From contig NZ_CP011509.1 in NCBI RefSeq assembly GCF_001027285.1, forward strand, positions 12,362,501-12,426,500: a stretch of 64,000 bases of DNA, read 5' to 3'. Below the pieces are notes generated by a model that did no database searches, was not told the DNA's origin, and saw only the letters and a program-made list of their open reading frames with translations. Each line of letters starts with the position of its first letter. Position 1 is the stretch's first letter. The DNA is from Archangium gephyra (GTDB lineage Bacteria; Myxococcota; Myxococcia; Myxococcales; Myxococcaceae). Made by a program: the position numbers and the translations under genes. Of the stretch, positions 5,005 to 23,745 are shown piece by piece.

Positions 5005-5037
5005 CCTCACCCCGGCCCTCTCCCGGAGGGCGAGGGA
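5005..5037 (-). repeat. Half copy of the dispersed hairpin repeat, forming the end of cheB
   Basis: Read on the minus strand, this is one arm of the repeat found at 10832, 13602 and 58740: a CCCTCGCC / GGGAGAGGG hairpin followed by GGGGTGAGG. It encodes the last residues of CheB (PSPSGRGPG), and the TGA stop lies inside the conserved GGGTGAGG. Confidence 0.75.
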
Positions 5038-6074
5038 GGAGCTCTGCCCAGGGCCGCCATGAGCGCGGACATCTCCGCGGGCGTGAGCGTCTGGGTCGCC
5101 GCCCCCATCGCCCTCGCCGCGCCTGGCATCCCGTCCACCACGCAGCTCGCCCCGTCCTGCGCCACCGTCAGCGCTCCCGTCTGGCGCATCGTCAACAGCC
5201 CCCTCGCCCCGTCCTCCCCCATCCCCGTCAGCAACAGCCCCACCGCCCTCGAGCCGAAGAAGCCCGCCACGCTCTCGAACAGCACGTCCACCGACGGCAC
5301 CGCCACGCCCCTCGAGTGCTGCGTCTGCAGCTTGCCCCCGCGCACCACCAGGTCCCTGTCCGCCGGTGACACGTACACCACCCCCGGCTCCAGCCACTCC
5401 CCTCCCTGGGCCACCATCGTCCGGTGCCCCGTCCCCCCCAGCCACCGCGCGAAACCCGGCTCGAAGCCCCGGACGATGTGCTGCGCCACCACCACCGGAA
5501 ACGGGGCCGGGGCCGGCAACGCCTTCAACAGCTCGAACACCAGCGGCGGCGCTCCCGTGGAGCCTCCAATCGCCAGCAGCGAGCACGGCTTCGGCTCGGG
5601 CACCACGGCCACCTGCGACGGGAGGGGCGAGGCCACCGCCGGCGTCCGCAGCGACATCCTCCTGCGGCCCACCACCCGCGCATGCGCCATCACCCGCACC
5701 GTGCGCAGCAGCCGCTCGCGGAACTCCTTCACCGCCTCCAGCCCTCCCACCGTGGGCTTGGCCAGCACGTCCACCGCTCCGGCCCGCAGGGACTCGAACG
5801 TCCTGTCCCTCCCCGGCGTCTCCAGCTGCCCGCTGAGCACCACGATGGGACACGGCGCCGTGGCCATGATCTCCGTGATGGCCTCCACCCCGTCCATGCC
5901 TCCGGGCAGCACCAGGTCCATCAGCACCAGCTGCGGACTCCAGCGTTGCACCGCCACCACCGCGTCGCGGCCATTGGCCACGGGCGGCAACAGCTCGAGG
6001 TCGGGCTCCCGGCGCAGGATCTGCTCGAGGAAGGCCACCACCGAACGCGAGTCCTCCACCAGCAACAGCTTCAA
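5007..6074 (-). CDS. cheB: CheB protein-glutamate methylesterase/deamidase
   Basis: A 355-residue two-domain CheB, the family's usual length. The receiver domain (1-120) has the acidic pair (VEDS), phospho-acceptor Asp53 (LMDLVLPGG) and Lys106 (LAKPT). The methylesterase domain (about 165-345) has the full triad: Ser172 in IGGSTGAP, His199 in AQHI and Asp288 in GMGEDGA. It hydrolyses methyl-glutamates on chemoreceptors, giving adaptation. The start is TTG at 6074 with GGGAGG 8 nt upstream; there is no ATG in frame. No cheA, cheW, cheR or receptor lies nearby, so it is an orphan of a chemosensory system encoded elsewhere. Its last ten codons and stop come from a repeat element. Confidence 0.95.
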   Translation of the reverse strand: MKLLLVEDSRSVVAFLEQILRREPDLELLPPVANGRDAVVAVQRWSPQLVLMDLVLPGGMDGVEAITEIMATAPCPIVVLSGQLETPGRDRTFESLRAGAVDVLAKPTVGGLEAVKEFRERLLRTVRVMAHARVVGRRRMSLRTPAVASPLPSQVAVVPEPKPCSLLAIGGSTGAPPLVFELLKALPAPAPFPVVVAQHIVRGFEPGFARWLGGTGHRTMVAQGGEWLEPGVVYVSPADRDLVVRGGKLQTQHSRGVAVPSVDVLFESVAGFFGSRAVGLLLTGMGEDGARGLLTMRQTGALTVAQDGASCVVDGMPGAARAMGAATQTLTPAEMSALMAALGRAPPSPSGRGPG

Positions 6075-6195
6075 CAGAGAGGCCTCCCACTGTGACCACG
6101 CATGCGTCCCACTCCCGCCCCACTCCCGCCACCTCCCCGCGAACGTGACGGGAGAGGTTACCAGGAGCAGGGGCGTCCGGGGTCTCCCGCCGCCT

Positions 6196-6816
6196 TCACT
6201 TCTTCCCGGAAGGCTTCCCCGAGCCCTTGCGCAGCTGGGCTGTCACCTTCACCAGCGCGTTGTGCGGGCACACGGTGCGGTGCTTCGTCTTCTCGTGGCC
6301 GCGCAGGGAGAACTCCACGAGCACCGGGGTGCCCGGCAGGCACTCGAGCCCCACCGACACGGGCGTCTCGCCCTGGTCCTTCCCATCCACCAGGATGGTG
6401 GCTCCGGCCGGCTCCGAGTCGACCATCAGGACGGCCCCCTCGAAGTCGGCGCGCTCCTCGCGCACCCCCGTCTCCTGCGGCAGCTCCGTCGGGGTCTTGA
6501 GGCCCGGCGTCTCCACGGCGGGGCGCTCCACCGGCGTCGAGGAGAAGGTGGGCTGGAGGGTGATCATCCGCGGCCCGGTAGTCAGCTCGCCCTGCAACAG
6601 GGGGCGCACGAACAGCCCCACCGCCACCAGCGCGCACAGGGCCGAGGCCAGCTTCAGCCCCGCGGCCGCCCCTTCCAACCGGGACACCTGGCCCGCCGGG
6701 GGAGCCGCGGGCGCCGCGGGCACCACCGGACGCGCGGGCGGCGCCGGGGGCACACCCGCGCCCGCGCCTGTGCTGCCGGGCGTGGACGGGTTGGGCTGGG
6801 AAGCATTGCCACTCAC
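6196..6816 (-). CDS. PEGA-domain single-pass membrane protein
   Basis: About 206 residues. A Pro/Ala-rich cytoplasmic N-terminus (PPAPPARPVVPAAPAAPP) is followed by one membrane helix (about 54-75, LASALCALVAVGLFV) and a periplasmic C-terminus with a PEGA domain (VDSEPAGATILVDGKDQG ... PVLVEFSLRGHE). It ends in a basic tail (GSGKPSGKK). PEGA domains are surface or peptidoglycan-associated beta modules. GTG at 6816 was chosen because GAGG lies 7 nt upstream; GTG at 6831 would add five residues. It follows the ATPase gene by under 30 bp on the same strand, so both are one transcript and the product is probably a partner of that ATPase. Confidence 0.8.
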   Translation of the reverse strand: MSGNASQPNPSTPGSTGAGAGVPPAPPARPVVPAAPAAPPAGQVSRLEGAAAGLKLASALCALVAVGLFVRPLLQGELTTGPRMITLQPTFSSTPVERPAVETPGLKTPTELPQETGVREERADFEGAVLMVDSEPAGATILVDGKDQGETPVSVGLECLPGTPVLVEFSLRGHEKTKHRTVCPHNALVKVTAQLRKGSGKPSGKK

Positions 6817-6843
6817 GAGGCCACCTCGCACGAATCACCGCAC

Positions 6844-8370
6844 TCAACCGACCACACGGAGGACCTCCCGCAACGTCGTGGTTCCGGCATTCACCTTCGC
6901 CAGGCCGGCGGCGAGCAGCGGCACCATGCCCTCGGACACCGCGATGTCGTGCGCGCGCGACGTGGGCGACTTGGTGTTGACGCACTCGCGGATGGCCGGC
7001 GTCACCTTCAGCACCTCGTAGAGCGCGGCGCGCCCCAGGTAGCCGGAGCCCCCGCAGCGCTCGCAGCCCACCGGCACGTAGAAGGGGCCCGTGGTGGGCA
7101 GGCCCACCGCCTCCAGCCGCGCCAGCTCGTCGATCTCCGGGGACGCGGCCATGCGGCAGTGCGGGCAGAGCGCGCGCACCAGGCGCTGGGAAATGGCGGC
7201 CACCGACGCGGACGCGAGCAGGAAGGGCTCCACCCCCATCTCGATGAGCCGGTTGAAGACGCCCGCGGACGAGCTCGCGTGCACCGTGGTGAGCAGCAGG
7301 TGGCCGCTGAGGCCGGCCTGGATGGCGGTGCGCGCCGTCTCCGCGTCGCGAATCTCTCCCACCATGATGACGTTGGGATCCTGGCGCAGCACGGACCGCA
7401 GGCCCTGGGCGAAGGTGAAGCCCTGCTCGGCGTTCACCTGCGTCTGCGAGAAGAGCGGCACGTCGTACTCCACCGGATCTTCAATGGTGGCGATGCGCGT
7501 CAGGTCCCCTCGCGTCTTCTTGATGTAGCCGAGCGAGGCATACAGCGTCGTCGTCTTGCCGGCGCCGGTGGCACCCGCCACGAAGATGATGCCCTGGGGC
7601 GCGTCCAGCAGGCGCTGGTAGGCGGTGAGCGTCTCGGGCGCGAAGCCCAGCCGGGGCAGCTCCGGAAGCCGCACGGTGCTGCGGGCGATGCGCAGCGCCA
7701 CGGACTCACCGTGGTTGGTGGGCAGCAGCGACAGGCGGATGTCCGCGGGGCCCTCGGGCGTGCCGAAGGAGAAGTGGCCGTCCTGCGGCCGGTCCGAGCG
7801 GAAGAGCACCACCTTGCCCAGCACCTTGAGGCGGTTGATGAGGCGCGAGTGGTGCTCGCGCGGCATCATCATCACCTCCTCGAGCACGCCGTGGACGCGG
7901 AAGGCCAGGCGCGTGCCCGTCTCCAGCGGGTGCATGTGCACGTCGCTGGCGCCCACGCGCACGGCCCCATCCAGCAGCACGTCCACGAAGGCGATCATGT
8001 CCGGCTCGGGGCGGGAGATGTAGCCGCGCAGCACGCCCTGCAGCTCGACGAGCATCTCGCGCACGGCGAACGCCACGTCCGCGTCCACCACCGCCAGCGG
8101 CGAGAGCGACAGCCGTTGCGTGAGCCCCTGGCGCGAGCGGCGCACGCGCGCATCCAGCGCGGAGCCCGCGGCGCCCAGTGCGAGGCACAGCCCCACGCAG
8201 CCCAGGATGACCGGCGTGACGGCGAGCTCCAGGTAGCGGCCACCGAGCCGCTGCGCGGTCTCCGCGTCCTGGATGGGATTCTGGTACAGCCACATACCGA
8301 TGCTCCCCAGGAGCACCAGCACGGCCAGCACCCAGGTGGCCTGGGCGGCTTTTCGGACGGGCAGACTCAT
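6844..8370 (-). CDS. Membrane-anchored GspE/PilB-type secretion ATPase
   Basis: A 508-residue protein. The C-terminal three quarters is a type II secretion/type IV pilus assembly ATPase: N-subdomain (ASDVHMHPLETGTRLAFRVHG), Walker A GATGAGKTT (266-274), Asp box (TIEDPVEY), Walker B (NVIMVGEIRD), His box (LLLTTVHASSSAG) and the zinc-type CPHC ... CERC pair typical of GspE/PilB. Instead of the usual N-terminal GspE/MshE domain it has two predicted membrane helices (about 11-29 and 48-70). No secretin, prepilin or inner-membrane platform gene is adjacent; the only partner is the PEGA protein. It probably hydrolyses ATP in a pilus- or secretion-like assembly, but the system is not identifiable here. 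Confidence 0.88.
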   Translation of the reverse strand: MSLPVRKAAQATWVLAVLVLLGSIGMWLYQNPIQDAETAQRLGGRYLELAVTPVILGCVGLCLALGAAGSALDARVRRSRQGLTQRLSLSPLAVVDADVAFAVREMLVELQGVLRGYISRPEPDMIAFVDVLLDGAVRVGASDVHMHPLETGTRLAFRVHGVLEEVMMMPREHHSRLINRLKVLGKVVLFRSDRPQDGHFSFGTPEGPADIRLSLLPTNHGESVALRIARSTVRLPELPRLGFAPETLTAYQRLLDAPQGIIFVAGATGAGKTTTLYASLGYIKKTRGDLTRIATIEDPVEYDVPLFSQTQVNAEQGFTFAQGLRSVLRQDPNVIMVGEIRDAETARTAIQAGLSGHLLLTTVHASSSAGVFNRLIEMGVEPFLLASASVAAISQRLVRALCPHCRMAASPEIDELARLEAVGLPTTGPFYVPVGCERCGGSGYLGRAALYEVLKVTPAIRECVNTKSPTSRAHDIAVSEGMVPLLAAGLAKVNAGTTTLREVLRVVG

Positions 8371-8480
8371 TCGGAGCCCCCCACGCTAACAGGCGCCTCC
8401 CTCCGCCTCAATGAGCAGACACGCCGCGTACGGGTGGGCACGCCCTAGCGGAAATCCCCACCCCGGCCGTAACCCCGGAG

Positions 8481-9497
8481 ATGAAGCTTGCGAGCCGCGA
8501 GGACTCCTCCAATATGTGCCCCGCGGGGAGGACCGCATTCATCGACGGGGTGAGGTGTGTCCTCTCCCTCTCGCTGGAGCGTGCCTCCTTGGTCCATCGA
8601 CTCGTCCTCCTCTGTGCGTTGTGGGTGCCCGGCCTGGCCGTGGCGCAGCCGTCCGACCCGCTGCCAGGCTTCGACCTGCAACGCCTGCAGCTCGAGCCGT
8701 CCGGGCTCGGCTCGCTGGTGGTGGGCACGGGCCGGACGCTGGACCCGGGCATCGTCCGCGTCTCGGTGCAGGGGCACTACGAGCACCTGCCGCTCAACTT
8801 CACGCGCGCCTGGGACCCCGGCCTCAACGTGGTGGGGCTGGTCGAGAACAAGTTCTCCGGGCACGTCACCGCCGCCGTCGGCGTGCTGCCCTGGCTCCAG
8901 CTCGGAGCACAGCTGCCCTACATCTTCGGCCAGCGGGGAGAGCCCTTCCTGAGGACCCCTCCCCCCAATGGCCGGGGCCTGGACGAGCCCTGGGTGTCGG
9001 TGCGCCTGGCGCCGCTGCAGGTGAAGCACGGGGCCCCGCTCAACGCCGCCGTGGAGCTCGCGGCCGCGCTGCCCGTGGGCCAGCCGGAGATTCTCGGCAG
9101 GGACGCGTACGCGGTGAACCCCAAGCTGCAGTTGGGCCTGCAGTCCGAGGGGGCCCAGCTGGGCCTCGAGCTGGGCGCGCTGCTGCGTCCCCGGCATGAT
9201 CTGTCGCCCCTGACCCGGCGCGAGCAGGACGTGGTGGGCAGCGAAGTGCGCGTGGGCGCCACCGTCACCTCGCGCGGGATGAACAGCACCTCCACCCGGC
9301 CCGAGCTGAGCGTGCTGCTCAACCTCCCCATGCAGGGCGGCCAGCCCAGCGGCGAGGTGCTGGTGGGCGTGCGCAAGCACACCGTGACGGGATTGGACCT
9401 GTACTTCCTGGGCGGCCCGGGCGTGGGCACCGCCGTGGACATGCCCGCCCTCCGGCTGCTGGTGGGCGCCTCCTTCGCCACCGGCGAGGTGGACTGA
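8481..9497 (+). CDS. Outer-membrane barrel protein (OmpA-N-like, no OmpA domain)
   Basis: Up to 338 residues. A hydrophobic export segment (LVHRLVLLCALWVPGLAVAQ) is followed by an amphipathic beta protein: IVRVSVQGHYEH, VTAAVGVLPWLQLGAQLPYIFG, LGLELGALLRP, VRVGATVTSRG. It ends in a typical closing strand (MPALRLLVGASFATGEVD). This looks like the barrel half of myxobacterial OmpA-like proteins, but the peptidoglycan-binding OmpA domain is absent. The start is uncertain: ATG 8481, the ATG at codon 12 or GTG 8550 are possible, and the signal peptide favours a start downstream of 8481. The gene is divergent from the ATPase operon. The function is unknown. Confidence 0.75.
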   Translation: MKLASREDSSNMCPAGRTAFIDGVRCVLSLSLERASLVHRLVLLCALWVPGLAVAQPSDPLPGFDLQRLQLEPSGLGSLVVGTGRTLDPGIVRVSVQGHYEHLPLNFTRAWDPGLNVVGLVENKFSGHVTAAVGVLPWLQLGAQLPYIFGQRGEPFLRTPPPNGRGLDEPWVSVRLAPLQVKHGAPLNAAVELAAALPVGQPEILGRDAYAVNPKLQLGLQSEGAQLGLELGALLRPRHDLSPLTRREQDVVGSEVRVGATVTSRGMNSTSTRPELSVLLNLPMQGGQPSGEVLVGVRKHTVTGLDLYFLGGPGVGTAVDMPALRLLVGASFATGEVD

Positions 9498-9654
9498 TCC
9501 CGCGTCTCCAGACACACCTCCAGACACACCTCGGGAGCGCCGTGCCCTCACCCGAGGCGGATGGCTCCTCGGGATATTCCAGGGTTACAGTGCTCTCCCG
9601 AGCGGGCCCGCGCCGGGTCCCGGACGCACTGGACGCCAGAAGGAAGACACGCCG

Positions 9655-10824
9655 ATGAGCCGTCACTCCCCGCGCACCTGGATGCTGGCGAGCGCCCTCG
9701 TGGGCTCGCTGGGCCTGTCCTGCACGCCCCCCGAAGAGCCCTTCCCCAACCAGGACGAGCTCGAGGTGCTCCAGAGCCTGCACACCCCCTCGCCCCTGCC
9801 GCCCAAGGACCCCACCAACAAGTACGGGGACAGCCCGGCGGCGGCCGCGCTGGGCCACCGGCTCTTCAACGACCCGGGCCTGTCCAGCTGCGGCACCGTC
9901 TCCTGCCAGAGCTGCCATGACGGCGAGGGCCGCTCGGTGGACACGGCGGTGGCCGAGGGCTGTGACGGCAAGCTCACCGGACGCAACCCGCCCACGGTGT
10001 TGAACGCGGGCTACAGCACCTGGTTCATGTGGGACGGGCGCGCGGACCGGCTGTGGAACCAGGCCCTGCTGCCGCTGCTCAGCCCCGTGGAGATGAACTC
10101 CAACGCCGGGCTCCTGCGCGCCCGGCTGTCCGCGGAGTACGCGGAGGAGTACCGCGCCCTCTTCGGCAAGCTGCCCTCCGAGGAGACCGATGACAACCAG
10201 CTGCTGGCCCACTTCGGCAAGGCCATCGCCGCGTACGAGCGCACCCTCAACCGCAACAACGCCCCCTTCGACCAGGACGTCCGCCGCTTCCTCCAGGCGG
10301 TGGAGGCCGGCACGGCGGAGGAGGATCCCGCCTACCTGGGCCTGAAGACCTTCGTGCGCAAGGGCCAGTGCAGCGCGTGCCACAAGGGCCCCATGCTGAG
10401 CGACGACCAGTTCCACAACATCGGCGTGAAGGACCTGAGCGACAGCCAGCGCGGCGTGGCGGCGGCGGCCACGCCGATGCTCGACTGGACCTTCAACTCG
10501 GCGGGGCCGTACAGCGACGCGCCCGGCGGCATCGAGTCCTCGCGGCTGCTGCGGCTGCGCAATGACCTGCACGAGAAGGCCTCCGAGCTGGAGGGCGCCT
10601 ACAAGACGCCCACGCTGCGCAACGTGAAGCTCACGGCGCCGTACATGCACACCGGCGAGGTGAAGACGCTCGAGGACGTCATCGACCTGTACGACAAGGG
10701 CGGCGAGCCGGCGGGCAACTACGCGGGCTCGGTCTCGGTGACCATCAAGAAGCTGGACCTCACCGACGAGGAGAAGAAGGCCCTGCTCCTGCTGCTCGAG
10801 TCGATGACGGGCGCGGCGAAGTAG
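9655..10824 (+). CDS. Di-heme cytochrome c peroxidase (CCP/MauG family) lipoprotein
   Basis: A 389-residue exported protein with lipobox-like LGLSC (Cys23). It has two covalent heme sites, CQSCH (84-88) and CSACH (239-243), in the spacing of bacterial di-heme peroxidases. Other family hallmarks are HRLFNDPGLS before heme 1, GRNPPTVLNAGY, FMWDGRADRLWNQ and, after heme 2, FHNIGV and YMHTGEVKTLEDVIDLYD. It most likely reduces peroxide in the periplasm with electrons from cytochrome c; MauG-type modification of another protein cannot be excluded. A full copy of the dispersed repeat follows the stop and may end transcription. Confidence 0.92.
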   Translation: MSRHSPRTWMLASALVGSLGLSCTPPEEPFPNQDELEVLQSLHTPSPLPPKDPTNKYGDSPAAAALGHRLFNDPGLSSCGTVSCQSCHDGEGRSVDTAVAEGCDGKLTGRNPPTVLNAGYSTWFMWDGRADRLWNQALLPLLSPVEMNSNAGLLRARLSAEYAEEYRALFGKLPSEETDDNQLLAHFGKAIAAYERTLNRNNAPFDQDVRRFLQAVEAGTAEEDPAYLGLKTFVRKGQCSACHKGPMLSDDQFHNIGVKDLSDSQRGVAAAATPMLDWTFNSAGPYSDAPGGIESSRLLRLRNDLHEKASELEGAYKTPTLRNVKLTAPYMHTGEVKTLEDVIDLYDKGGEPAGNYAGSVSVTIKKLDLTDEEKKALLLLLESMTGAAK

Positions 10825-10831
10825 CAGAATG

Positions 10832-10970
10832 TCCCCTCTCCCCTCGGGAGAGGGACGGGGTGAGGGTGCCGGATGAACCCGGGTTGAACCCCCGGCCCAC
10901 ACTGCGTGACACAGGTTGAAGAACGGGCCCGGTAACCCTCACCCTGACCCTCTCCCGAGGGGAGAGGGGA
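10832..10970. repeat. Dispersed repeat, full copy A (139 bp, 36-bp inverted ends)
   Basis: The two ends are near-perfect inverted repeats (about 34 of 36 match). Each end itself folds (CCCTCTCCC ... GGGAGAGGG) and is followed by GGGGTGAGGGT. The core holds GGTTGAACCCCCGG and GGTTGAAGAACGGGCCCGG, shared with copy C at 58740. It lies between convergent genes and may act as a bidirectional terminator. It encodes no protein, and no target-site duplication was found by eye. Confidence 0.9.
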
Positions 10971-11026
10971 GATCTCCGCCCACTTCCCTGAAAGGGATGG
11001 GCACCGGGGCGGAGACTCGTCCTGGC

Positions 11027-11569
11027 TCAGCGGCCCGTGGGCGCGGGCGGAGCCGGCTGCGCGGCGGGGGCCGGCTTCACGTCCGTGTTCTGCCCCGCGA
11101 CGATGGCCCACTTGCCGCCCGTCAGCTTCAGCACGTAGCGCATGCGGGTGCGCAGCACGCCCGGCTCGGTGGCCTGCACACCCGGGGGCAGCGCCGTGTA
11201 CTTCGTCACCACGTGCTCGGTGTCCACCACCGCCACGAAGGGAGCGACGAAGACGATCTTCCGCACCGTCACCTCCGAGTGGCTGTCCTTGAAGAGGCTC
11301 GCGAAGACCGCGGCGTGCCGCTTCTCGATCTCCTCCCGGCCGCTGAACACCGTGCCCACGATGTTGATGAACTCGGCCTCCGGCGCGAAGTCCTTGCTCC
11401 ACGCCGCCGCGTCGTGACGGTTCCACGCCTCGGTCTGCTCGGCCACGAGCTTGCGCAGGCTCACCTCGTCGCGGGACTGGCCCCGGCCCTGCTGGGCCTG
11501 GACGGGTGAGGCAACGAGGAACGACAGGACCACGGCCATGACGGCCGAGCTTCGCGCGAAGGTGTTCAT
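11027..11569 (-). CDS. Exported SnoaL/SgcJ-like (NTF2-fold) protein
   Basis: A 180-residue protein with signal peptide MNTFARSSAVMAVVLSFLVASPVQAQ, then an NTF2-like alpha+beta cone: LRKLVAEQTEAWNRHDAAAWSKDFAPEAEFINIVG, GREEIEKRHAAVF, VVDTEHVVTKYT and LKLTGGKWAIVAGQNT. This is the SgcJ/EcaC/DUF4440 pattern. Members bind small hydrophobic or polyketide-like ligands, or simply fold; no catalytic residues can be named. A Pro/Ala tail (PAPAAQPAPPAP) ends it. GGGAG lies 6 nt upstream of the ATG. It is convergent with the cytochrome peroxidase across the repeat. Confidence 0.8.
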   Translation of the reverse strand: MNTFARSSAVMAVVLSFLVASPVQAQQGRGQSRDEVSLRKLVAEQTEAWNRHDAAAWSKDFAPEAEFINIVGTVFSGREEIEKRHAAVFASLFKDSHSEVTVRKIVFVAPFVAVVDTEHVVTKYTALPPGVQATEPGVLRTRMRYVLKLTGGKWAIVAGQNTDVKPAPAAQPAPPAPTGR

Positions 11570-11685
11570 GCAGGGCTCCCCTGGAATGCAATGGCGGGTG
11601 CCCGGGACGCGGGCAACCGTGGGCCCCTTCTAGCAGTGCCCCTCACACGCGCGAGACATTCCCATTCCCCGAGAGCGGACACCGC

Positions 11686-12270: not shown

Positions 12271-12878
12271 GAGGGTTCCTCGGAGTCGAAGCAGCGCGCG
12301 TCGATGGCGTCGGCGAGCGTGTCGGCGGTGCGGAGCGTCTTCACGAGCAGCGGGACGAGCACGGCGACGGGATTGTGGTCGAGGCCGCGCACGCGCTGGG
12401 CCTCCTGAATCTCCCGCAGCCACGTGGCGAGCAGGGGGATGAAGCGCAGGGTGAGGGAGAGCAGCAGGCCCAGCCGCGCGGGATGGAGCCCGAAGCGGGC
12501 CAGGGGCCGCAGGGCCCGCTCCAGCGCGTCGAGCATGTCCGAGGCCCGCGTCGTCAGGGACACGAGCGTGGCGAGCAGCAACAGGACGGCGAGCCGCAGC
12601 ACGGCCTCCAGCGCGGGCTCCCAGCCGGACACCAGCGCGTGCAGGGCGAAGAGCGGGACGAGCACGAAGGCGGAGAGGCGGAGGACGGGCGCCACTTCGC
12701 GCGGACGCAGGCGGGCGAGCGCGTAGAGGCCAAGCGTGGCCACGAGCGCACCGGAGAGGACGGGCAGCGAGGAGAAGAGCAGCAGCCCGGTGCCGGCGGC
12801 GAGCAGGGCCAGCATCTTGGCGCCCGCGGGGACGGCATGGACGGGCGAGTCGCGGTGGAGGTAGAGGCCGAGGCTCAC
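12267..12878 (-). CDS. bioN: BioN, transmembrane (EcfT) component of biotin transporter
   Basis: A 203-residue polytopic protein of EcfT/CbiQ type. Four to five hydrophobic helices are followed by the cytoplasmic coupling region with the conserved Ala-Arg-Gly motif ([10 protein letters not shown]). The C-terminal [16 protein letters not shown] is typical of EcfT proteins. It links the ATPase BioM to BioY. Start and stop overlap its neighbours by 4 bp on each side (ATGA with bioM, GTGA with bioY), indicating tight translational coupling. Confidence 0.9.
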
Positions 12879-13601: not shown

Positions 13602-13730
13602 TCCCCTCTCCCCTTGGGAGAGGGCCGGGGTGAGGGTGTTCCGTCCTCTGCGTGCACCTACGTCACACCCAGAGAAACCCGGGGCCACCCTGTAGACCCT
13701 CACCCCAGCCCTCTCCCAGAGGGAGAGGGA
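13602..13730. repeat. Dispersed repeat, full copy B (129 bp)
   Basis: Same 35-36 bp inverted ends as copy A (CCCCTCTCCCCTTGGGAGAGGG at the left, CCCTCTCCCAGAGGGAGAGGG at the right), with GGTGAGGGT flanking the core inside. The core is diverged from copies A and C. It lies between ndh and bioM, two genes read in the same direction. Confidence 0.88.
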
Positions 13731-13741
13731 GTCCCACGCGC

Positions 13742-16345: not shown

Positions 16346-16363
16346 GAGGCGGCCCGCGGTGGG

Positions 16364-17755
16364 CTACCGCACCAGGTGGAACGCGGTCTGCCGCTGGAAG
16401 GCCCAGCGCACCTTGCCACTCGCGTCGAGCATGACGTCCTCCTCCTGCGCCGAGCGCACCTTCTGCCCGCCCCACTCCGCCACCGGGCTCGTCGCCTGCA
16501 GCTCGATGGAGAACCACTGGCTCGCAATCACCTTGTGGTCGCCATTGCCCGGCACGCCCTCCTGCCGGTCCCACAGGCCGATCATCGGCCCCGCCCCGTG
16601 TCCGTTCAGGCCGATGGGGTGCGAGTACACCGTCCCATCAATGCCCTCGGCCTTCATCCGCTCGCGCGAGGCCTTGAGAATCTCATTGCCCGAGCGCCCC
16701 GGACGCAGCTCCTCGAAGACGATGTCCTGCAACCGGTTGGAGCGCGCCAGCGCCGCCTTCAGCCCCGCGGGCGCGTCCGTCTCGCCCTCGCGCAGCACGT
16801 AGCCCATGTGCTGCGTGTCCGTGTTCAGCCGCAGCGCCGTCACCCCGAAGTCGCAGTGCAGCACGTCCCCCCGCTCGATGAGCGGATCCTCGCCCACCTC
16901 CGCCTCCGTCTTGCCCTGCCGCTGCACGCTCACCGACGGCTGGAACCACGTCCCCAGCCCCAGGTCGTTCACCCGCTGGCGCATCCACCACACCACGTCA
17001 CTGGTGCGCGTCTTGCCCGGCACAATCACCTGGTTGGAGAAGCCCGTCTCGATGATGTTCCACGCCAGCTTCGTCAGGTCCTCGTAGAAGCGCTCCTCGT
17101 CCGCGCCGCGCCAGGCGATGAGGTCCACCGGCAGGCCCCCGGACGGCTTGAGCTTCGCGGTCCACTCGGGCCCGAGCGCCTCCGTCATGCCCTCGTACTC
17201 GCCATGCGTCAGCCCGTCCGCGAAGGCGAACGTGCGCGACACGTTGATGGCGATGGCCTTCGGCTGCCGCTCCTCCAGCACCGCCTTCAGCACCTTCCAC
17301 TGGTCCGGGCCCCACAGCTCGGCCTGCCGGGTGACGCCGCCTCCGTCCACCTGCATCTGCGCGCGCCGCGCCTCGTACACGCCGCCCTGCGTTCCCCCGC
17401 CCAGCGCGAGCCGCTCCACGCCCTTCTCCGGGCCCCGGTCGTGGAACACGTAGATGGTGCGCCGCCGCGCCGCGAACGTGGTGGGCGCCACCAGCGCGGG
17501 GAAGACGGGGTCCTCGTTGTACTCGCGCATCGGCACCACCCACAGCTCGATGCCGTACTGGCGCATCAACGCGGGCAGCGCCTTGTCCAGGCGCTCGCGC
17601 AGCCAGTCCTGCTGCCGGGTGGCCTGCTCGCGCAGCGTGCCGAAGGGACGCTCGGGCCGGGAGGCCTCCGGCGCAGGGGAGGCCGGCGCGGTGGTGGCAC
17701 AGGCGGACGTGAAGAGGAACAGGGGGACGAGGAGACGGCTCCAGGTGTTCTTCAT
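16364..17755 (-). CDS. M24 metallopeptidase (Xaa-Pro aminopeptidase-like) lipoprotein
   Basis: A 463-residue protein. The signal MKNTWSRLLVPLFLFTSACATT ends in a lipobox (TSAC), so it is a lipid-anchored envelope protein. The N-terminal domain resembles creatinase_N (YGIELWVVPMREYNEDPVF). The pita-bread domain has the expected metal ligands: Asp in HCDFGV, Asp in LNTDTQHMGY, His in YSHPIGLNGHGAG, Glu in WFSIELQA and Glu in QEEDVML. It probably removes N-terminal residues before proline from peptides outside the cytoplasm, suiting digestion of prey protein. It is separated from the upstream histidine kinase by 37 bp on the same strand. Confidence 0.88.
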   Translation of the reverse strand: MKNTWSRLLVPLFLFTSACATTAPASPAPEASRPERPFGTLREQATRQQDWLRERLDKALPALMRQYGIELWVVPMREYNEDPVFPALVAPTTFAARRRTIYVFHDRGPEKGVERLALGGGTQGGVYEARRAQMQVDGGGVTRQAELWGPDQWKVLKAVLEERQPKAIAINVSRTFAFADGLTHGEYEGMTEALGPEWTAKLKPSGGLPVDLIAWRGADEERFYEDLTKLAWNIIETGFSNQVIVPGKTRTSDVVWWMRQRVNDLGLGTWFQPSVSVQRQGKTEAEVGEDPLIERGDVLHCDFGVTALRLNTDTQHMGYVLREGETDAPAGLKAALARSNRLQDIVFEELRPGRSGNEILKASRERMKAEGIDGTVYSHPIGLNGHGAGPMIGLWDRQEGVPGNGDHKVIASQWFSIELQATSPVAEWGGQKVRSAQEEDVMLDASGKVRWAFQRQTAFHLVR

Positions 17756-17792
17756 GGCCGCGCAGCATCGCACGGACGGGCCCGGCCGGGGC

Positions 17793-19097
17793 TCAGGACG
17801 CCACCTTGACGGAGCCCCCCACCGGGAACTCCAGGCGCAGGCGCGCGCCCCCCTCTTCCCGGTTCTCCGCCACCAGCGAGCCCCCGCATTGCTCCACCAG
17901 CTCTCGCGACAGGGCCAGCCCCAGCCCCGTCCCCTTCTCCGGGCCCTTCGTCGTGAAGAAGGTCTCGAAGAGCCGGGGCAGCACGTGCGGGGGAAAGCCC
18001 GGACCGTTGTCCTCCACCCGCAGGACGACCCGCGCGCCCTCGCACACGCCGATGATGCGCACCTCGGAGCCCTCGCGGCCTCGCGCCTCCAGCGCATCCC
18101 CCGCGTTCACCAGCAGGTTGAGCAGCACCTGCGCCAGCCTCCGGCGCACGGCCAGCACCGGCGGCAGATCCTCCGGAATGTCCACCTCCAGCCGGGCCAC
18201 GTGCTGGAGCCGCAGCCGGGCAATCCGCACCGCGTCGCTCACCACGTCCGCCACCGCGCACTCGGTGGGCTCCTCGGTGTCCATGCGCGAGAAGCCCCTC
18301 AGGTCCCCGATGATCTGCCGCACCCGCTCCACGCCGGTGCGCGTCTCGCGGAACACCTCCGCCAGCTCCTCCCGCGAGGCCCGCCGGGGCTCCGCCAACA
18401 CCTCCCGCTCCAGGTAGTCGAGGTTGGCGCCGATGAAGGCCACCGGGTTGTTGATTTCATGCATCACGCTCGCCGCGAGCTGCCCGATGGTGGCCAGCTT
18501 CTCCGAGTGGGCCCGGCGGCGCTCACTGATGGCGAGCGACTCGAGGGCCTCGCGGCGCGCGCGCTCCAGCCGGCCCTCGTTCTCCGCCCGCTGGGCCTTG
18601 CGGAACTCACTGGCCCCATACGCTCCGACGAGCGTCACCGTCACCACGATGCCGACCCACAGCAGCACCTGGGACATCGGGCGACCCGCCATCCACAGCA
18701 TGCCCCCGGCCCCCGCGCTGCACAGGGCGCCCGAGAGCATGACCGGGAGCGTGTCCTGCGGATAGATGAGACACAGGATGAGCGGGAGGCAGGGAAAGAG
18801 GTGGAAGTACGCGCCGTCACTGCCCCCCGCCACGAGCACCAGACCGATGAAGCAGAGGCTGCCGGCCACGCACTGGAAGGTCGTGTGCAGGCGCATCGAC
18901 GACGCGGAGTGCTCGTCCATCCGCAACGCGGAGAGGGCCACGCACAGGGCCCAGACGACACGCAGGACGAGCGCCGGGAGTCCAGGCCCCACGGCGAGGA
19001 CATCCAACACGTATTGGGACAGGAGCGCCGGGGCCAGCCAGAGCAACATCTTCCGGCGGGGCCCCCACTCGCCGGACGCCGCCACCTCAGGCGTCAC
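17793..19097 (-). CDS. Membrane histidine kinase (orphan)
   Basis: About 434 residues from GTG 19097. Five to six helices fill the N-terminal half (MLLWLAPALLSQYVLDVLAVG through VLLWVGIVVTVTLVGAYGASE), then a short coiled coil (QRAENEGRLERARREALESL), a HisKA H-box (SVMHEINNPVAFIGANLDYL) and HATPase boxes N (LLVNAGDALEARG), G1 (VEDNGPGFP), F (ETFFTT) and G2 (GTGLGLALSREL). It autophosphorylates on the H-box histidine. No response regulator is adjacent. A GTG at 19226 would add 43 low-complexity residues and lies inside the hairpin after the kelch gene, so 19097 is preferred, though its ribosome site is weak. Confidence 0.85.
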   Translation of the reverse strand: MTPEVAASGEWGPRRKMLLWLAPALLSQYVLDVLAVGPGLPALVLRVVWALCVALSALRMDEHSASSMRLHTTFQCVAGSLCFIGLVLVAGGSDGAYFHLFPCLPLILCLIYPQDTLPVMLSGALCSAGAGGMLWMAGRPMSQVLLWVGIVVTVTLVGAYGASEFRKAQRAENEGRLERARREALESLAISERRRAHSEKLATIGQLAASVMHEINNPVAFIGANLDYLEREVLAEPRRASREELAEVFRETRTGVERVRQIIGDLRGFSRMDTEEPTECAVADVVSDAVRIARLRLQHVARLEVDIPEDLPPVLAVRRRLAQVLLNLLVNAGDALEARGREGSEVRIIGVCEGARVVLRVEDNGPGFPPHVLPRLFETFFTTKGPEKGTGLGLALSRELVEQCGGSLVAENREEGGARLRLEFPVGGSVKVAS

Positions 19098-19212
19098 GGG
19101 CAACGGCCCGGCCTGCTCCGGAAGCGTCGAAGATGGTGGATCGAGGGGGGGCAACGCCCTCCATCGTAACCCGTTCCCGCCTCCCGGTCCGAGCCCCGCC
19201 CTTCCGCGAAGG

Positions 19213-19240
19213 CGGAAGCGGAGCACCGGCCCCGCTTCCG
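19213..19240 (-). terminator. Hairpin after the kelch gene
   Basis: Perfect 9-bp arms CGGAAGCGG / CCGCTTCCG starting 4 bp after the kelch stop. No T-run follows. Probably a terminator or processing signal between the kelch and kinase genes. Confidence 0.5.
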
Positions 19241-19244
19241 TGCC

Positions 19245-20498
19245 TCACCGCCGGGTGAAGGCGAGGTCCTCCTCGTCGAACACGCCGCAGCCCTCGGCGG
19301 CGCACGCAGGCATCGCCGTGCACGGCCCACACTCCAGCGTCCCGCCGCACCCGTCCGGCACCGCGCCACACGTCGCCTCGCACGTCAGCGGCGTGCACAC
19401 GCCCGGATCATACCGCTCGCTCGTGGCCAGCGTGCCCTCCAGGTCGTTGGAGCCTCCCACCACCAGCACCGCTCCGTCCTCCAGCGGCACCAGCCCCGCT
19501 CCCCTCCGCGCCTCCCACAGCGACGGCTCCACGCTCCACGTGTCCGACACCGGATCGTAGCTCTCCACCGACGCGAGCGAGCCCGACATCACGTGGAAGC
19601 CCCCCACCACCAGCACCCGCCCCTCGGGCGTCACCAGTGCCCCGTGCGCCTCGCGCGGCATCGCCGGCGGCGCCGCCAGCTTCCACTCGCCCCGCCTCGG
19701 GTCGAACAGTTCCGCCGTGGCCGCCGCGCGCGACGTCGTGCCGCCCACCACCAGCACCCGCCCGTCCGGCAGCACCGTCACCGTGTGCCCCGAGCGGTGC
19801 GTTCCCGCCGCGCCTCCCACCGGGCCCGCCTTCGTCCACTGACCGCTCGCGGGCTCGTACAGCTCCGCCTGCAGCCCGCTCACGAAGAGCACCTGGCCGT
19901 TGCCCAGCACCACGCCCGTCTGCGCCCCGGCGCGCGCCGACACCGGCGCTCCCGTGCGCGTCCACTCGCCCGTCGCCGGATCGAACAGCTCCGCCGAGCG
20001 CACCGGGTGCCGGTCCACGTCGAAGCCGCCCGCCACCAGCACGCGCCCGTCCGGCAGCAGCACCGCCGCGGGCTCGTTGCGCGCCTCGCTCATGTCCCGC
20101 ACCGCCGTCCACCGGCCCGTGCCCGGGTCGAACACCTCCGCGCTCGCCAGCGCGCCGAAGGAAGCCGAGAACGTGCCACCGGCCACCAGCACGCGCCCGT
20201 CCGCCAACCGCACCGCCGCGTGGTTGCGCCGCGCCGTGCGCATCGCGCCCATGGCGTACCACTCGCCCGTCTCCGGCTCGTATACCTCGCTGCTCGACAG
20301 CGTGCGGCTGCCGTCATGTCCACCCGCGGCCAGCACCCGCCCGTCCGCCAGCGCCACCCACGGCAGCAGCTTGCGCGGCGTGCTCAGCTCCCGGGACACC
20401 ATCCCCTGCTCCAGCCCCTCCGGCGGCGGCGCCGAGCTGCAGGAGAACACCATCGTGAAGAGCGCCAGCATGGCGCAGGACGTCGAAACCCTTTTCAT
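19245..20498 (-). CDS. Seven-bladed kelch-type propeller surface lipoprotein
   Basis: A 417-residue exported protein. The signal MKRVSTSCAMLALFTMVFSCSS probably ends at a lipid-modified Cys. Seven kelch/galactose-oxidase-like blades each carry the LxDGRVLVxGG core (LADGRVLAAGG, LADGRVLVAGG, LPDGRVLVAGG, LGNGQVLFVSG, LPDGRVLVVGG, TPEGRVLVVGG, LEDGAVLVVGG) followed by ExxDPxTGxW. The end is a compact Cys-rich segment (CTPLTCEATCGAVPDGCGG ... CGPC), a myxobacterial stalk-like motif. No copper-radical oxidase residues are evident, so a binding or adhesion role is likelier than catalysis. AAGGG precedes the ATG closely. Confidence 0.85.
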   Translation of the reverse strand: MKRVSTSCAMLALFTMVFSCSSAPPPEGLEQGMVSRELSTPRKLLPWVALADGRVLAAGGHDGSRTLSSSEVYEPETGEWYAMGAMRTARRNHAAVRLADGRVLVAGGTFSASFGALASAEVFDPGTGRWTAVRDMSEARNEPAAVLLPDGRVLVAGGFDVDRHPVRSAELFDPATGEWTRTGAPVSARAGAQTGVVLGNGQVLFVSGLQAELYEPASGQWTKAGPVGGAAGTHRSGHTVTVLPDGRVLVVGGTTSRAAATAELFDPRRGEWKLAAPPAMPREAHGALVTPEGRVLVVGGFHVMSGSLASVESYDPVSDTWSVEPSLWEARRGAGLVPLEDGAVLVVGGSNDLEGTLATSERYDPGVCTPLTCEATCGAVPDGCGGTLECGPCTAMPACAAEGCGVFDEEDLAFTRR

Positions 20499-20640
20499 GA
20501 CCCTTCCCACTCCGTTCCGAGAAGGACGGGTCTACACGCCGGGTCTGACATTCCCGGCGCCGGATTCCTCCATGATTCCCAGGGGTTATCGTCCTGTGTG
20601 TGACAGACCTGTCAGGTGGGGCGCGGCAGGTGCCGCACCC

Positions 20641-20680
20641 CGTCATGGGCCCGTCATGGCCGCGTCATGGGCCGCGTCAG
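20641..20680. promoter_or_regulatory. Phased direct repeats CGTCATGG upstream of the kelch gene
   Basis: CGTCATGG starts at 20641, 20652 and 20663 (11-bp period, about one helical turn), with a partial fourth unit at 20675. Nearby, TGACAG-AC-CTGTCA at 20601-20614 is an inverted repeat. Both lie 100-180 bp upstream of the kelch start codon. The last units overlap the stop of the gene at 20677. A regulator-binding array is possible but not proven. Confidence 0.35.
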
Positions 20681-20988
20681 AGGCCGGAGTGGGAGGCCTC
20701 CCCGTCCTCCACGTTCACCGGCTCGGAGTCCATGCCGTGGTGGTGGCGCGGCGGCAGCGCTCCGCCATCGTCGTCCTCCAGCTTCAACAGGTGCGGGGTG
20801 CGCTCCAGGTACAGCTCGCCATCGCGCGCGTAGCGCACGTCCGAGAACTCCACGAGGAACTCGTCGCGCGACAACAGGCGCGGCTCGAGCTCGAAGTGCG
20901 TCTCGCCCACCGCGCGCACGCGGCCCACCTTGCGCCCCTCCATGTCCCGCACCACCATGCCTTCGCGAACCTCGTCCTGCACCACCAT
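20677..20988 (-). CDS. DUF2171/PRC-barrel-like small protein
   Basis: A 103-residue soluble protein: MVVQDEVREGMVVRDMEGRKVGRVRAVGETHFELEPRL, then FLVEFSDVRYARDGELYLERTPHLL. The motif 'G-M-V-V-x-D-x-x-G-x-K-V-G' and the beta-rich remainder match DUF2171/PRC-barrel-like modules, small beta-barrels that bind RNA or other proteins. The tail is acidic and His-rich (DDDGG ... PPRHHHG). The start is fixed by GAGGAGG 5 nt before the ATG; the longer frame is low complexity. The molecular function is unknown. Confidence 0.72.
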   Translation of the reverse strand: MVVQDEVREGMVVRDMEGRKVGRVRAVGETHFELEPRLLSRDEFLVEFSDVRYARDGELYLERTPHLLKLEDDDGGALPPRHHHGMDSEPVNVEDGEASHSGL

Positions 20989-21208
20989 GGCGTCCTCCTC
21001 GCGAGCCCCCGGGCCCTCCCGCCCCGGAGCACATCCCTTCTGAGTGGGGAACACCCGGCCCGGCGGCAAGCCCCGGCGGCTGGCAGGAAGAGCGGCCCTG
21101 GAGTCAGGGGGTGGCTGCACTGCCCGGCGCACGTGCGGAAGCCAGTCCTCCAGGGCTCGCGGGGCGCGCGGTGCCTAACGTTCCTCCGAATGAGAGGAGG
21201 AGGCCGCC

Positions 21209-21406
21209 ATGCTCCTGGAACTGACCGCCGTCGAGGCCCGTGAGCTCAAGGAAGTCCTCGACTCGTCGCTGCGCAAGCTGCTCGATGAGATCGCCCACTC
21301 CGACCACCGCGCCTACCGCGAGATGTTGCAGGCGCGCTATGCCCGGCTCGAACAGCTCAACCACCGGCTGGACACGTCCGTGGAGACCGACCAGGTCTAC
21401 GCCTGA
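21209..21406 (+). CDS. Small helical hypothetical protein
   Basis: A 65-residue, highly charged, all-helical protein (ELTAVEARELKEVLDSSLRKLLDEIAHSDHRAYREMLQARYARLEQLNHRLD), probably a helical hairpin or coiled coil. The heptad-like leucines and strong GAGGAGG ribosome site make it a convincing gene despite its size. There is no signal peptide or membrane segment. Similar small proteins occur in myxobacterial genomes without assigned roles. Confidence 0.75.
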   Translation: MLLELTAVEARELKEVLDSSLRKLLDEIAHSDHRAYREMLQARYARLEQLNHRLDTSVETDQVYA

Positions 21407-21545
21407 GTCCCGGCCCGTGCGCTCCGGGCCCGGGGTCCCTCAACGGCGTCCGTGAGGCCGTAAAACACGCGCCCCACGGCATGGAGAGGGGGCCCCGTCG
21501 CCCGGCTCGAAACGTGCGCACGTTCTGGACGTCCGGCATGCTTGG

Positions 21546-23741
21546 GTGCACGTGACGACTCCGGCCGCCCCCATCCGCTTCCTGCTCTCCCCGTCGCTGG
21601 GGGAGGTGAAGGAGCATGTGCGGGCCGAGCTCTTCAGCCGGGCACTCACCCAGCGGCTGGGCCGCCCGGTGGTGGTGGAGCTCGCTCCCTCGTACGAGGC
21701 GCTGGAGAGGGAGCTGGCGGAGGGCCGGGTGGACCTGGCGTGGGCCACGGCCGAGCAGTGCACCGCCTTCGAGCCCCAGGCCCGCGCGGTGCTGCGCGCC
21801 GTGCGCGCGGGGCTCTGGTACTACCACGCGGCCCTGGTGTGCCGGGCGGACGCACCGCTCACGCTGGGGACGTTGAAGGGGACGCGCGCCGCGTGGGTGG
21901 CCCCGCGCTCCACCGGCGGCTACCTCATGGCCGTGCGCCACCTGACGGCCCGGGGGCTGTCCGTGGCGGACACCTTCTCCGCGCAGCGCTTCCACGGCAC
22001 GTACCGCAAGGCCCTGCTGGCGGTACTGGCGGGGGAGGCGGACGTGGCCGCCATCTACTCGAGCCACCCGGAGGAGAACACGGTGCGCGCCTACCTGGCC
22101 GAGCACGTGGGCGCCGACGAGCGCAAGCTCATCCCCTTCGAGTTCACCGGGCCCTCGCCCGCCGACGGGCTCATCTTCACCCACCGCATGCCGGAGGCGG
22201 ACGTGACGGCGCTCGTCTCCGTGCTCACCACGCTGGCGGGCAGCGGCGCGGGGCTGGAGCCGCTGCTGGGCCTCTTCGACAGCGAGGGCTTCGTCCTGGC
22301 CTCCACGCCCCGTCCGCCAACGCCCCGGACGGCACGGCGCGCGGAATACCTCGCGGTGGACCTGGACGGGCAGGAGCGGTGCATGCGGCTGTGGACGCCC
22401 ACGGGGGTGGCCTTCGGCCGGGACGTGCGCCAGGCGGAGGGGCGGCCGTTGGAGGCGGTGCTGGGGCCCGAGGCGGCGGCGGCACTGGTGGCGCTCGCGC
22501 GCGCCGCGCGGCACAGCGGTGTGGGCGGCCGGGTGGAGTACCGCCTGGAGGTGGAGGGCGAGACGCGCTGGTACGCGGCCGAGGCCACGGTGCGCGCGCC
22601 GGCCACGGAGATGGCGAGCCCCACCACGGCGCTGCTGGTGCGGGACGTGACGGAGCTGCGCGCGCTGGAGGCGGAGCTGTACCGGCTGGCCTCCTTCCCG
22701 CTGCTGCACCCGGAGCCGATGCTGGAGCTGGGCCCGGGCGGTGAGTTGCACTACGCCAACCCGGCGGCGCACACGGCGTTTCCGGATCTGCTGGTGCGCG
22801 GGGTGGGGCACCCGCTGGTGGAGGCGGCCCAGGCGTGGGCGAAGCGGGGCGCGGCGGTGGGCGAGTCGCCGCCGGTCGTGCAGCTGGGCGGCCGGCATTG
22901 GGAGCTATCGGTATCGCCGCTGGTGGACCCGGAGGGCTTGCGCGTCTTCGCCAAGAACGTGACGGCACGCAAGCAGATGGAGGCGCAGCTCTTCAAGGCG
23001 GACCGGATGGCGGCGCTGGGCTCGCTGGCGGCGGCGGTGGGCCACGAGATGAACAACCCCCTGGCCTTCATGGTGGCCAACCTCGGCTTCGCGCGCGAGG
23101 AGCTGGCGCGGCTGAAGGCGGCGCTGAGCGAGGAGGGCCACGCGCTGGCCGGGGACGTGGACGACATGCTGGAGGCGCTGAGCGAGGCGACGGACGGCGC
23201 GGACCGGCTCAAGGGAATCGTGCAGGATTTGAGGCTGCTGTCGCGCGCGCCGCCGGAGCACCGCGAGACGGTGGAGGTGGTGCCGGCGCTGGAGCACGCG
23301 CTGGGCCTGGTGCGGGGCGAGCTGCGCCACCGGGCGAGGCTGGAGAAGGACTTCCGGCCGGTGCCGCGGGTGGAGGGCGACGAGGCGCGGCTGGTGCAGG
23401 TGTTCGTGAGCCTGATGCTCAACGCGGTCCAGGCGATGAACGAGCTGGACGCGACCCGCAACGTGCTGCGGGTGTCCACGTACACGGGCCCGGCGGGCGA
23501 GGTGGTGGTGCAGGTGCAGGACACGGGCGTGGGCATGCCGGCGGAGGTGCTGGCGCGCCTCTTCGAGCCCTTCTTCACCACGCGCCCGGCGAGCACGGGC
23601 CTCGGGCTGTCGGTGAGCCACGCCATCGTGACGAGCCTGGGCGGCACGCTGCGCGCCGAGAGCCGCGAGGGCGTGGGCACCACCCTCACCGTCATCCTCC
23701 CGGCCGCCCCGCCCTCGCCCTCCGGAAGAAGTACGGAGTGA
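21546..23741 (+). CDS. Cytosolic histidine kinase with PhnD/SBP-like sensor and PAS domain
   Basis: A 731-residue protein. Residues about 8-260 resemble a phosphonate/ABC substrate-binding protein (IRFLLSPSLGEVKEHVRAELFSRALTQRL, YEALERELAEGRVDLAWATAEQC, FHGTYRKALLAVLAGEADVAAIYSSH). Two PAS-like segments follow (about 275-375 and 380-470), then HisKA (AAVGHEMNNPLAFMVANL) and HATPase (LMLNAVQAMNELD, DTGVGMP, FFTTRPASTGLGLSVS). No signal peptide or membrane helix is visible, so the binding domain should face the cytoplasm, unlike periplasmic relatives. The start is GTG 21546 or 21552. The last residues (PSPSGRSTE) and the stop come from a half copy of the repeat family. Confidence 0.85.
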   Translation: MHVTTPAAPIRFLLSPSLGEVKEHVRAELFSRALTQRLGRPVVVELAPSYEALERELAEGRVDLAWATAEQCTAFEPQARAVLRAVRAGLWYYHAALVCRADAPLTLGTLKGTRAAWVAPRSTGGYLMAVRHLTARGLSVADTFSAQRFHGTYRKALLAVLAGEADVAAIYSSHPEENTVRAYLAEHVGADERKLIPFEFTGPSPADGLIFTHRMPEADVTALVSVLTTLAGSGAGLEPLLGLFDSEGFVLASTPRPPTPRTARRAEYLAVDLDGQERCMRLWTPTGVAFGRDVRQAEGRPLEAVLGPEAAAALVALARAARHSGVGGRVEYRLEVEGETRWYAAEATVRAPATEMASPTTALLVRDVTELRALEAELYRLASFPLLHPEPMLELGPGGELHYANPAAHTAFPDLLVRGVGHPLVEAAQAWAKRGAAVGESPPVVQLGGRHWELSVSPLVDPEGLRVFAKNVTARKQMEAQLFKADRMAALGSLAAAVGHEMNNPLAFMVANLGFAREELARLKAALSEEGHALAGDVDDMLEALSEATDGADRLKGIVQDLRLLSRAPPEHRETVEVVPALEHALGLVRGELRHRARLEKDFRPVPRVEGDEARLVQVFVSLMLNAVQAMNELDATRNVLRVSTYTGPAGEVVVQVQDTGVGMPAEVLARLFEPFFTTRPASTGLGLSVSHAIVTSLGGTLRAESREGVGTTLTVILPAAPPSPSGRSTE

Positions 23742-23745
23742 GGTT
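23712..23745 (+). repeat. Half copy of the dispersed repeat at the end of the histidine kinase gene
   Basis: It matches the half element at the cheB end at about 28 of 34 positions and is read in the same frame: PSPSGR followed by SerThrGlu and TGA in GGAGTGAGG. It also reaches the stop of the convergent GST gene. Confidence 0.6.

Follow-up and report, generated by a model that had tools for sequence, protein, structure and literature searches.

In the 64,000-nucleotide (nt) stretch of Archangium gephyra DNA analyzed here (the window; contig NZ_CP011509.1, positions 12,362,501 to 12,426,500), two unrelated genes, cheB and a gene encoding a histidine kinase (HK), end inside one arm of a dispersed palindromic repeat, which supplies their last nine codons and their TGA stop codon. 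We consider it very probable that elements resembling repetitive extragenic palindromic (REP) sequences settle just 3' of genes, that a gene occasionally runs into one and is capped by it, and that the resulting tail is a tolerated passenger. A preliminary description of the window had noted that both 3' ends match the repeat arm and are read in the same frame, giving PSPSGR, three further residues and a TGA; translation of the two genes and scoring against the arm consensus confirmed this observation, while the interpretation then offered is supported in part. The two genes and their terminal arms are as follows, with mismatches counted at the 29 fixed positions of the consensus, 22 of which precede the stop codon.

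5007..6074, minus strand: cheB, response regulator with a CheB methylesterase domain, 355 amino acids (open reading frame translation, PF00072, PF01339, home-made gene caller; start codon uncertain)
5003..5036, minus strand: repeat arm forming the last nine codons (PSPSGRGPG) and the TGA (5007-5009) of cheB; 2/29 mismatches
21546..23741, plus strand: HK with a phosphonate-type substrate-binding domain (translation, PF12974, PF00512, PF02518; PF08448, PAS_4, matches only below its cut-off; start codon uncertain)
23712..23745, plus strand: degenerate repeat arm forming the last nine codons (PSPSGRSTE) and the TGA (23739-23741) of HK, with the stem broken; 6/29 mismatches

The terminal 34-mers of cheB and HK are identical at 28 of 34 bases by hand count. 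The homology at cheB, originally placed at 5005-5037, stands, with the arm occupying the 34 nt at 5003-5036. Likewise, the HK end matches the arm in sequence as proposed, but this copy no longer forms the stem of the repeat.

Structure and distribution of the repeat

The 34-nt arm reads CCCTCTCCC NNN GGGAGAGGG NN GGGGTGAGGGT, and the consensus obtained from 127 arms with at most three mismatches is CCCTC[T/G]CCC NNN GGGAGAGGG NN GGGGTGAGGGT. A full element consists of two such arms in inverted orientation, and three full copies are present in the window:

10834..10968: complete two-arm inverted copy, arms at 10834 (plus, 0 mismatches) and 10935 (minus, 1 mismatch), 9 nt past the stop of a gene ending at 10824
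13604..13729: complete two-arm inverted copy, arms at 13604 (plus) and 13696 (minus), 0 mismatches each, 12 nt from the stop of a minus-strand gene at 13742-15097
58742..58875: complete two-arm inverted copy, arms at 58742 (plus, 1 mismatch) and 58842 (minus, 0 mismatches), 4 nt past the stop of a gene ending at 58737

The A. gephyra genome (G000) is a single contig of 12,489,432 bases with 69% GC. The core pattern CCCTCNCCCTCCGGNAGA has 167 matches in this genome and none when read backwards, and a strict arm pattern has 393 copies. The other five genomes of the genus (G001 to G005) carry 205-440 strict copies each, bringing the total for the six genomes to 2,253, and the reversed controls gave 0 in all of these searches. 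Among 145 genomes of the order, 15 contain the strict arm, including all six of the genus, and the other 130 searched have none. Elsewhere in the family the arm is patchy, with 190 copies in G008, 90 in G012, 47 in G016, 27 and 38 in two genomes of genus g26, and one or two in a few others. One arm-like hairpin with four mismatches was seen in the alphaproteobacterium Methylobacterium sp. J-090 (L261:14745-14778, minus strand), 99 nt past a called gene end; it is the only such match among the loci fetched from outside the genus.

Individual arms were collected from 120 evenly spaced 20-kb stretches (2.4 Mb), from 30 three-kb loci around the first 30 of the 167 pattern matches, and from the window. 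After mirrored matches of one palindrome were merged, this sample contained 133 distinct arms at six or fewer mismatches, of which 89 came from the stretches, 36 from the pattern loci and 8 from the window. Arms with seven mismatches (22 rows) were excluded from the counts; reversed controls are frequent at that level. Most of the sampled arms (122 of 133) differ from the consensus at two positions or fewer, and decayed copies are very few, as if copies were young or quickly lost. Arms frequently occur as inverted pairs, with a spacing of 99-102 nt in 15 of 21, an arrangement that bears on a comparison with miniature inverted-repeat transposable elements (MITEs). Tandem pairs 62-69 nt apart also occur. 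A search of window positions 4500-24500 against Rfam gave no match at the gathering score.

Gene ends within arms and their reading frame

Sense genes stop inside an arm, in frame 0, at 6 of the 133 arms (2 of the 8 window arms, 1 of the 89 from the stretches and 3 of the 36 from the pattern loci), and no sense gene ends in frame 1 or 2. The four cases among the 125 arms outside the window encode a MutS-domain-V protein (L074), a histidine kinase (L016), a MobA-like transferase (L007) and a methyl-accepting chemotaxis protein (MCP; L029). All six ends use the TGA of GGGGTGAGGGT, and the arm contributes nine residues, PSPxGRGxG where it is intact.

In the 127 well-matched arms, stops in all six frames amount to 126 frame-0 TGA codons, one in each of 126 arms, and 12 others. 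Because this TGA is nearly the sole stop in six frames, any gene that terminates within a typical arm has to do so at this codon, and the frame shared by cheB and HK, the only one of the consensus arm with a stop, carries little information. The earlier suggestion that the element is equipped with a ready-made open frame and a stop is not supported: 1.28 six-frame stops are expected by chance in a 34-mer of the arm's composition, so that one stop per arm is close to chance and no built-in frame is needed.

A frame bias across the genome, the absence of which would have counted against that suggestion, is weakly supported. Outside the window, gene ends that enter an arm (six or fewer mismatches) from its outer side and stop within it are in frame 0 in four of four cases (chance probability 0.012). 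Simple tolerance predicts the same result. When translation is continued from the arm start, the median extension is 9 codons in frame 0, compared to 51 and 59 codons in frames 1 and 2, respectively, and filtering by tail length is thus sufficient to produce the bias. Two loci were excluded from the frame test, L108 (7996057, antisense, 6 mismatches), which is probably only a hairpin, and L058, a doubtful case of a start in the arm; two read-through arms of L084 were treated as interior arms and not as gene ends.

Among 1,764 gene ends in the stretches, one carries an arm tail free of mismatches and another (L115, ending PSPSEREAH) is mismatched at 6 of the 22 fixed positions, giving two arm-like ends compared to 0.05 expected from in-frame interior windows. 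L115 is possibly a decayed further case, outside the six counted above. The ends at L041 (7 mismatches) and L031 (8) in the same scan are at or near chance level. The window, with two arm-ended genes among 57, is a rich patch, and it was noticed because it is rich.

Placement of arms relative to genes

The repeat has the properties of a REP family in the broad sense, namely a short palindrome, a high copy number and a mostly extragenic location, with 117 of the 133 distinct arms lying outside called genes. It also has the preference of REPs for gene 3' ends: 97 arms face the 3' end of a gene and 20 a 5' end, and the remaining 16 overlap called genes, so that 97 of the 117 non-overlapping arms are 3'-facing, compared to 41% under random intergenic placement (binomial p 2e-20). 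Twenty-nine of the 117 (25%) lie at 3-20 nt behind a stop codon, whereas 4.6% would be expected at random within 20 nt. In our reading, the arm belongs to a REP-like palindromic repeat family of Archangium that is probably mobile.

A few copies lie in frame inside genes. The tRNA-modification GTPase MnmE (L014:1100-2623, minus strand) contains two in-frame arms within the protein (genome 498369-498467), an insertion similar to those of the Rickettsia palindromic elements discussed below; the NCBIfam match covers 503 amino acids of this protein for 445 model positions. In-frame repeats were also seen inside a shikimate-dehydrogenase-like protein (L091:18680-19957, minus strand; matches below curated cut-offs), a condensation/luciferase-like protein (L130:12066-14684) and an N6-methylase-like protein (L133:14950-16608). 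In the very long open reading frame of L084, two arms (genome 5518029 and 5521257), about 3.2 kb apart, occupy equivalent positions and are translated through in frame 1. The flanking motifs look like those of successive adenylation domains of a putative nonribosomal peptide synthetase, and the insert was apparently copied along with the modules. Pattern matches at 5481180, 5484375 and 5487600 share the L084 spacing. Arms in frame inside genes indicate that the repeat is occasionally translated, in whichever frame survives.

Orthologs and age of the tails

The proposal that the tails are repeat-derived additions is borne out by orthologs without the arm, which stop ahead of the tail, and by the four further arm-ended genes outside the window. 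The CheB protein shares 94% identity with its counterpart in Archangium violaceum Cb vi76 and 89% with the one in A. lansinium (best segments). An arm-derived cheB tail is present in all six genomes of the genus, with the TGA used in G000, G004, G005 and G002, and with an altered arm and a TAG ending the protein in G001 and G003. In G015, which represents a related genus and has 0 strict arms genome-wide, CheB ends in LARQAMKG with no PSPSGR tail; such an ortholog comparison had been suggested as a check. The G008 locus stopped short of the cheB gene end and was left out of this comparison. At the A. lansinium cheB end (L153 / L212), the arm, examined by eye, is apparently interrupted by some 30 nt of unrelated GC-rich DNA, which supplies a TAG.

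The HK tail is found in five of the six genomes (G000, G004, G001, G005 and G002). HK lacks it in G003, where the protein ends in AAQHP, in G015 (GSDAI) and in G008 (SMLCG), a genome with 190 strict copies of the arm. In G004, G005 and G002 the HK orthologs have a 0-mismatch arm at the corresponding position, and the cheB and HK arms of these three genomes together have 0-1 mismatches. In the G002 HK C-terminus (L185), the kinase core is separated from the arm-derived tail by a run of seven AAC (Asn) codons, compared to two in G005 (L186), a small codon-repeat expansion at the tail junction.

The four genes outside the window (P0004 to P0007) were compared by alignment ends only. The P0004 tail is apparently common to G004 and G001, and the alignments end at 618-619 of 629 in G005, G002 and G003. 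The tails of P0006 and P0007 are apparently common to G004 only; P0007 lacks a close ortholog in G002 and G005, and the G001 alignment of this protein continues past a TGA to 503 of 509. These alignments suggest that for three of the four genes the nearest relative, G004, has the tail as well and more distant genomes lack it. Taken together, the tails look like later additions of different ages.

One of the complete elements could also be followed between species. At the site of the 10834 element, A. lansinium has no arm and a different short hairpin instead, with the flanks aligning at 89-90%, and the outer arm is present in A. violaceum.

We compared the arms with the 900 upstream coding bases of the same genes. 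The arm was not significantly more alike than the coding DNA in any of 12 ortholog pairs, although the four of six genomes used per gene were those with a recognizable arm, a choice that favors conservation. The closest case was the HK arm of G005 and G002, identical at 34 of 34 positions (P 0.058). In G000, the HK arm shows more change than the gene itself. Selection on the arm was rejected on this basis, no pair falling below P = 0.05; the arms that can still be recognized diverge at about the pace of their genes, which fits a passenger.

Hairpin folding and mobility

The preliminary description had also proposed that the arm adds a terminator hairpin. The cheB arm reaches a folding energy of -25.3 kcal/mol (z -1.7); for this arm and for the copy at 10829, the lowest-energy fold differs from the simple 9-bp stem. 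HK forms only a different, weaker fold, the stem of the repeat being broken. The z-scores of the four arms folded, -0.3 to -1.7, are unremarkable. A scan of positions 4600-14200, a range that does not include HK or the 58742 site, found three terminator-like sites (mean of 2.0 in shuffled sequences), none of them at an arm. The proposal was therefore not supported, and an intrinsic terminator, that is, a GC-rich hairpin followed by a T-run, was rejected for the lack of a T-run and the unremarkable folding z-scores.

PF01797, the family of the REP-associated tyrosine transposases (RAYT, Y1_Tnp), has three matches barely above its cut-off (23.3-23.9 bits compared to 23). No arm at five or fewer mismatches lies within the 3-kb loci of these matches, and the association that characterizes RAYT-mobilized REPs was thus not found.

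Origin of the tails and alternative explanations

According to the reading that we favor, an element would land in or just behind the last codons of a gene, the insertion itself or a later loss would eliminate the native stop, and translation would continue beyond it. Entry in frame 0 would then lead to a stop after nine codons, adding a small and presumably unstructured tail, and the allele could survive. With entry in either of the other two sense frames, the extension would typically amount to 50-60 residues, and such alleles would mostly be removed by selection. The tail would drift with its gene as a tolerated passenger and would not be a functional cap. Several points weigh against this reading. 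Neither at cheB nor at HK could an empty site or a target duplication be made out at single-base level, so that insertion, as opposed to another form of capture, is something that we infer, and no mobilizing enzyme is tied to the repeat. The gene calls, made with our own dicodon caller, are provisional. Just four independent frame-0 ends lie outside the window, one of them in the random stretches, and the frame bias that they give is slight (0.012). Under a laxer cut, L087 (7 mismatches) is a contrary case, ending in sense frame 2 with a stop at arm position 17, and L095 (7 mismatches) is a frame-0 end without the TGA, its stop lying 8 nt beyond the arm. The antisense gene at L099, which falls outside the sense-frame test, ends at the TAG of an arm variant, contrary to an invariable use of TGA. 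Finally, P0005 is patchy, with alignments to 429-432 of 432 in G002, G003 and G005, to 424 in G004 and to 416 in G001.

Selection might alternatively keep the arm as a functional cap, either because a hairpin across the stop slows termination or lowers expression, effects described for Escherichia coli REPs within 15 nt of a stop, or because the tail has a role. The retention of the tail in six of six cheB and five of six HK orthologs of the genus, the nearly intact arms of G004, G005 and G002, and the ability of REPs at that distance from stops to stall ribosomes (PMC12306157) are all consistent with such a role. We nevertheless regard it as unlikely, since the arms are not significantly better conserved than the neighboring coding DNA, the HK stem is broken in G000, the HK tail is missing in G003 and the cheB arm is altered in G001 and G003. 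A bolder variant is a family-specific mobile stop cassette, whose strong hairpin over its own TGA would be repeatedly fixed at gene ends and retuned to regulate termination or protein output. If this were true, signaling genes of Archangium (CheB, kinases, MCP) would share a repeat-derived C-terminal cap, genus-wide for CheB; we consider it distinctly unlikely. Very unlikely, too, is an element shaped to carry an open frame and stop, so that its insertion is harmless at gene ends, with a target preference for stop codons. The 29 of 117 arms at 3-20 nt behind a stop and the TGA conserved in 126 of 127 arms would agree with it, but a single stop in six frames is about what chance provides, the TGA sits in GGGGTGAGGGT, which is conserved throughout at 85-100% and not at the stop alone, copies also lie inside genes in other frames, and REPs of other species share the preference for 3' ends (PMC3733652).

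The folding energy of the cheB arm would suit an intrinsic terminator overlapping the stop. This is highly improbable given the missing T-run, the z-scores, the broken HK stem and the absence of an arm at any of the three terminator-like sites in 4600-14200. A chance origin of two Pro/Ser/Gly-rich C-termini would be easiest to accept in a genome with such a GC content, and weak matches at 9 and 10 mismatches are indeed little above expectation (6 compared to 3.7 and 24 compared to 14.9). However, reversed-pattern matches number 0, and HK is mismatched at 5 of 22 positions before the stop (hand count), when six or fewer mismatches occur in 2 of 70,424 in-frame interior control windows (about 3 per 100,000). 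The 0-mismatch arms at the orthologous HK ends of three other genomes already refute a chance origin, to which we assign a negligible probability.

Comparison with known palindromic repeats

Palindromic repeats that supply stop codons are already known, and the Archangium family is another of these, not GTAG-tagged and carrying CGTC only in part. The termini of GTAG REPs 'often provide' the stop codon of flanking open reading frames, and others lie wholly inside open reading frames (Di Nocera et al., 2013; PMC3733652). Like the GTAG- and CGTC-tagged REPs described in that paper, the Archangium arms are short palindromes in many copies, mostly intergenic, near gene 3' ends and often arranged as dimers. 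Unlike in GTAG REPs, the stop here is a TGA in the unpaired GGGGTGAGGGT flank and not the TAG of the GTAG tag (PMC3733652), and the unpaired GTAG at the hairpin end that defines the GTAG superfamily was absent next to the stem in the base frequencies around 127 arms. CGTC occurs in the reverse reading of 74 of the 127 arms, its last C being part of the 9-bp stem (a one-base overlap). The CGTC superfamily is described as having a terminal CGTC (or TGTC, CCTC), A-T at the first two stem pairs and a loop of 4-5 nt (PMC3733652), whereas the first pairs here are G-C and the loop is 3 nt.

Rickettsia palindromic elements (RPE) are in-frame palindromic inserts in unrelated genes (PMC10969869), and they are described as encoding a conserved peptide within the open reading frame. 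The Archangium repeat resembles them in lying in frame within MnmE and other proteins. It differs from them in that nearly every frame of its arm is open, which the composition of the arm predicts, and in its mostly intergenic location. In enterobacteria, an RU-1 repeat is fused to the C-terminus of an amidase, whose normal stop is lost so that repeat DNA ends the protein (Delihas, 2007; PMC2759123). In that case 35 residues are added and the stop arose by a point mutation in the repeat, whereas in Archangium the consensus itself includes the stop. The E. coli REPs found close to stop codons lie behind the stop (PMC12306157), unlike some Archangium arms, which contain it.

We found no earlier description of the Archangium repeat family, its TGA or its ortholog series. 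A literature search on myxobacterial, Myxococcus and Archangium repeats, judged by title and the start of the abstract, gave no description of the arm family; the matches listed in a text search for the stem letters looked unrelated by title, and the part of PMC5009743 that was searched contained no REP passages. The series of orthologs with and without the element provides an example of a palindromic repeat adding short C-terminal tails to working proteins. For annotators, it is a warning that PSPxGRGxG tails followed by a stop, as well as HPHPxPLPEGEG stretches inside proteins, can be repeat-derived in Archangium genomes. The repeat would be relevant to expression if a hairpin over the stop affects translation, and nothing here shows such an effect.

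Neighboring features

HK and an opposite-strand gene resembling glutathione S-transferases converge with a 4-base gap (23741-23746), and the stop of the latter gene lies directly behind the arm remnant. A second short hairpin, AACTGGTCCGA-N-TCGGACCAGTT, has four copies in the 2.4 Mb of stretches (scrambled control 0), and all four (L048:3251, L076:14869, L104:10811 and L112:3744) lie between convergent gene ends. It is also present at about position 4420 of L212 and downstream of cheB in L156, and replaces the first repeat at one A. lansinium site.

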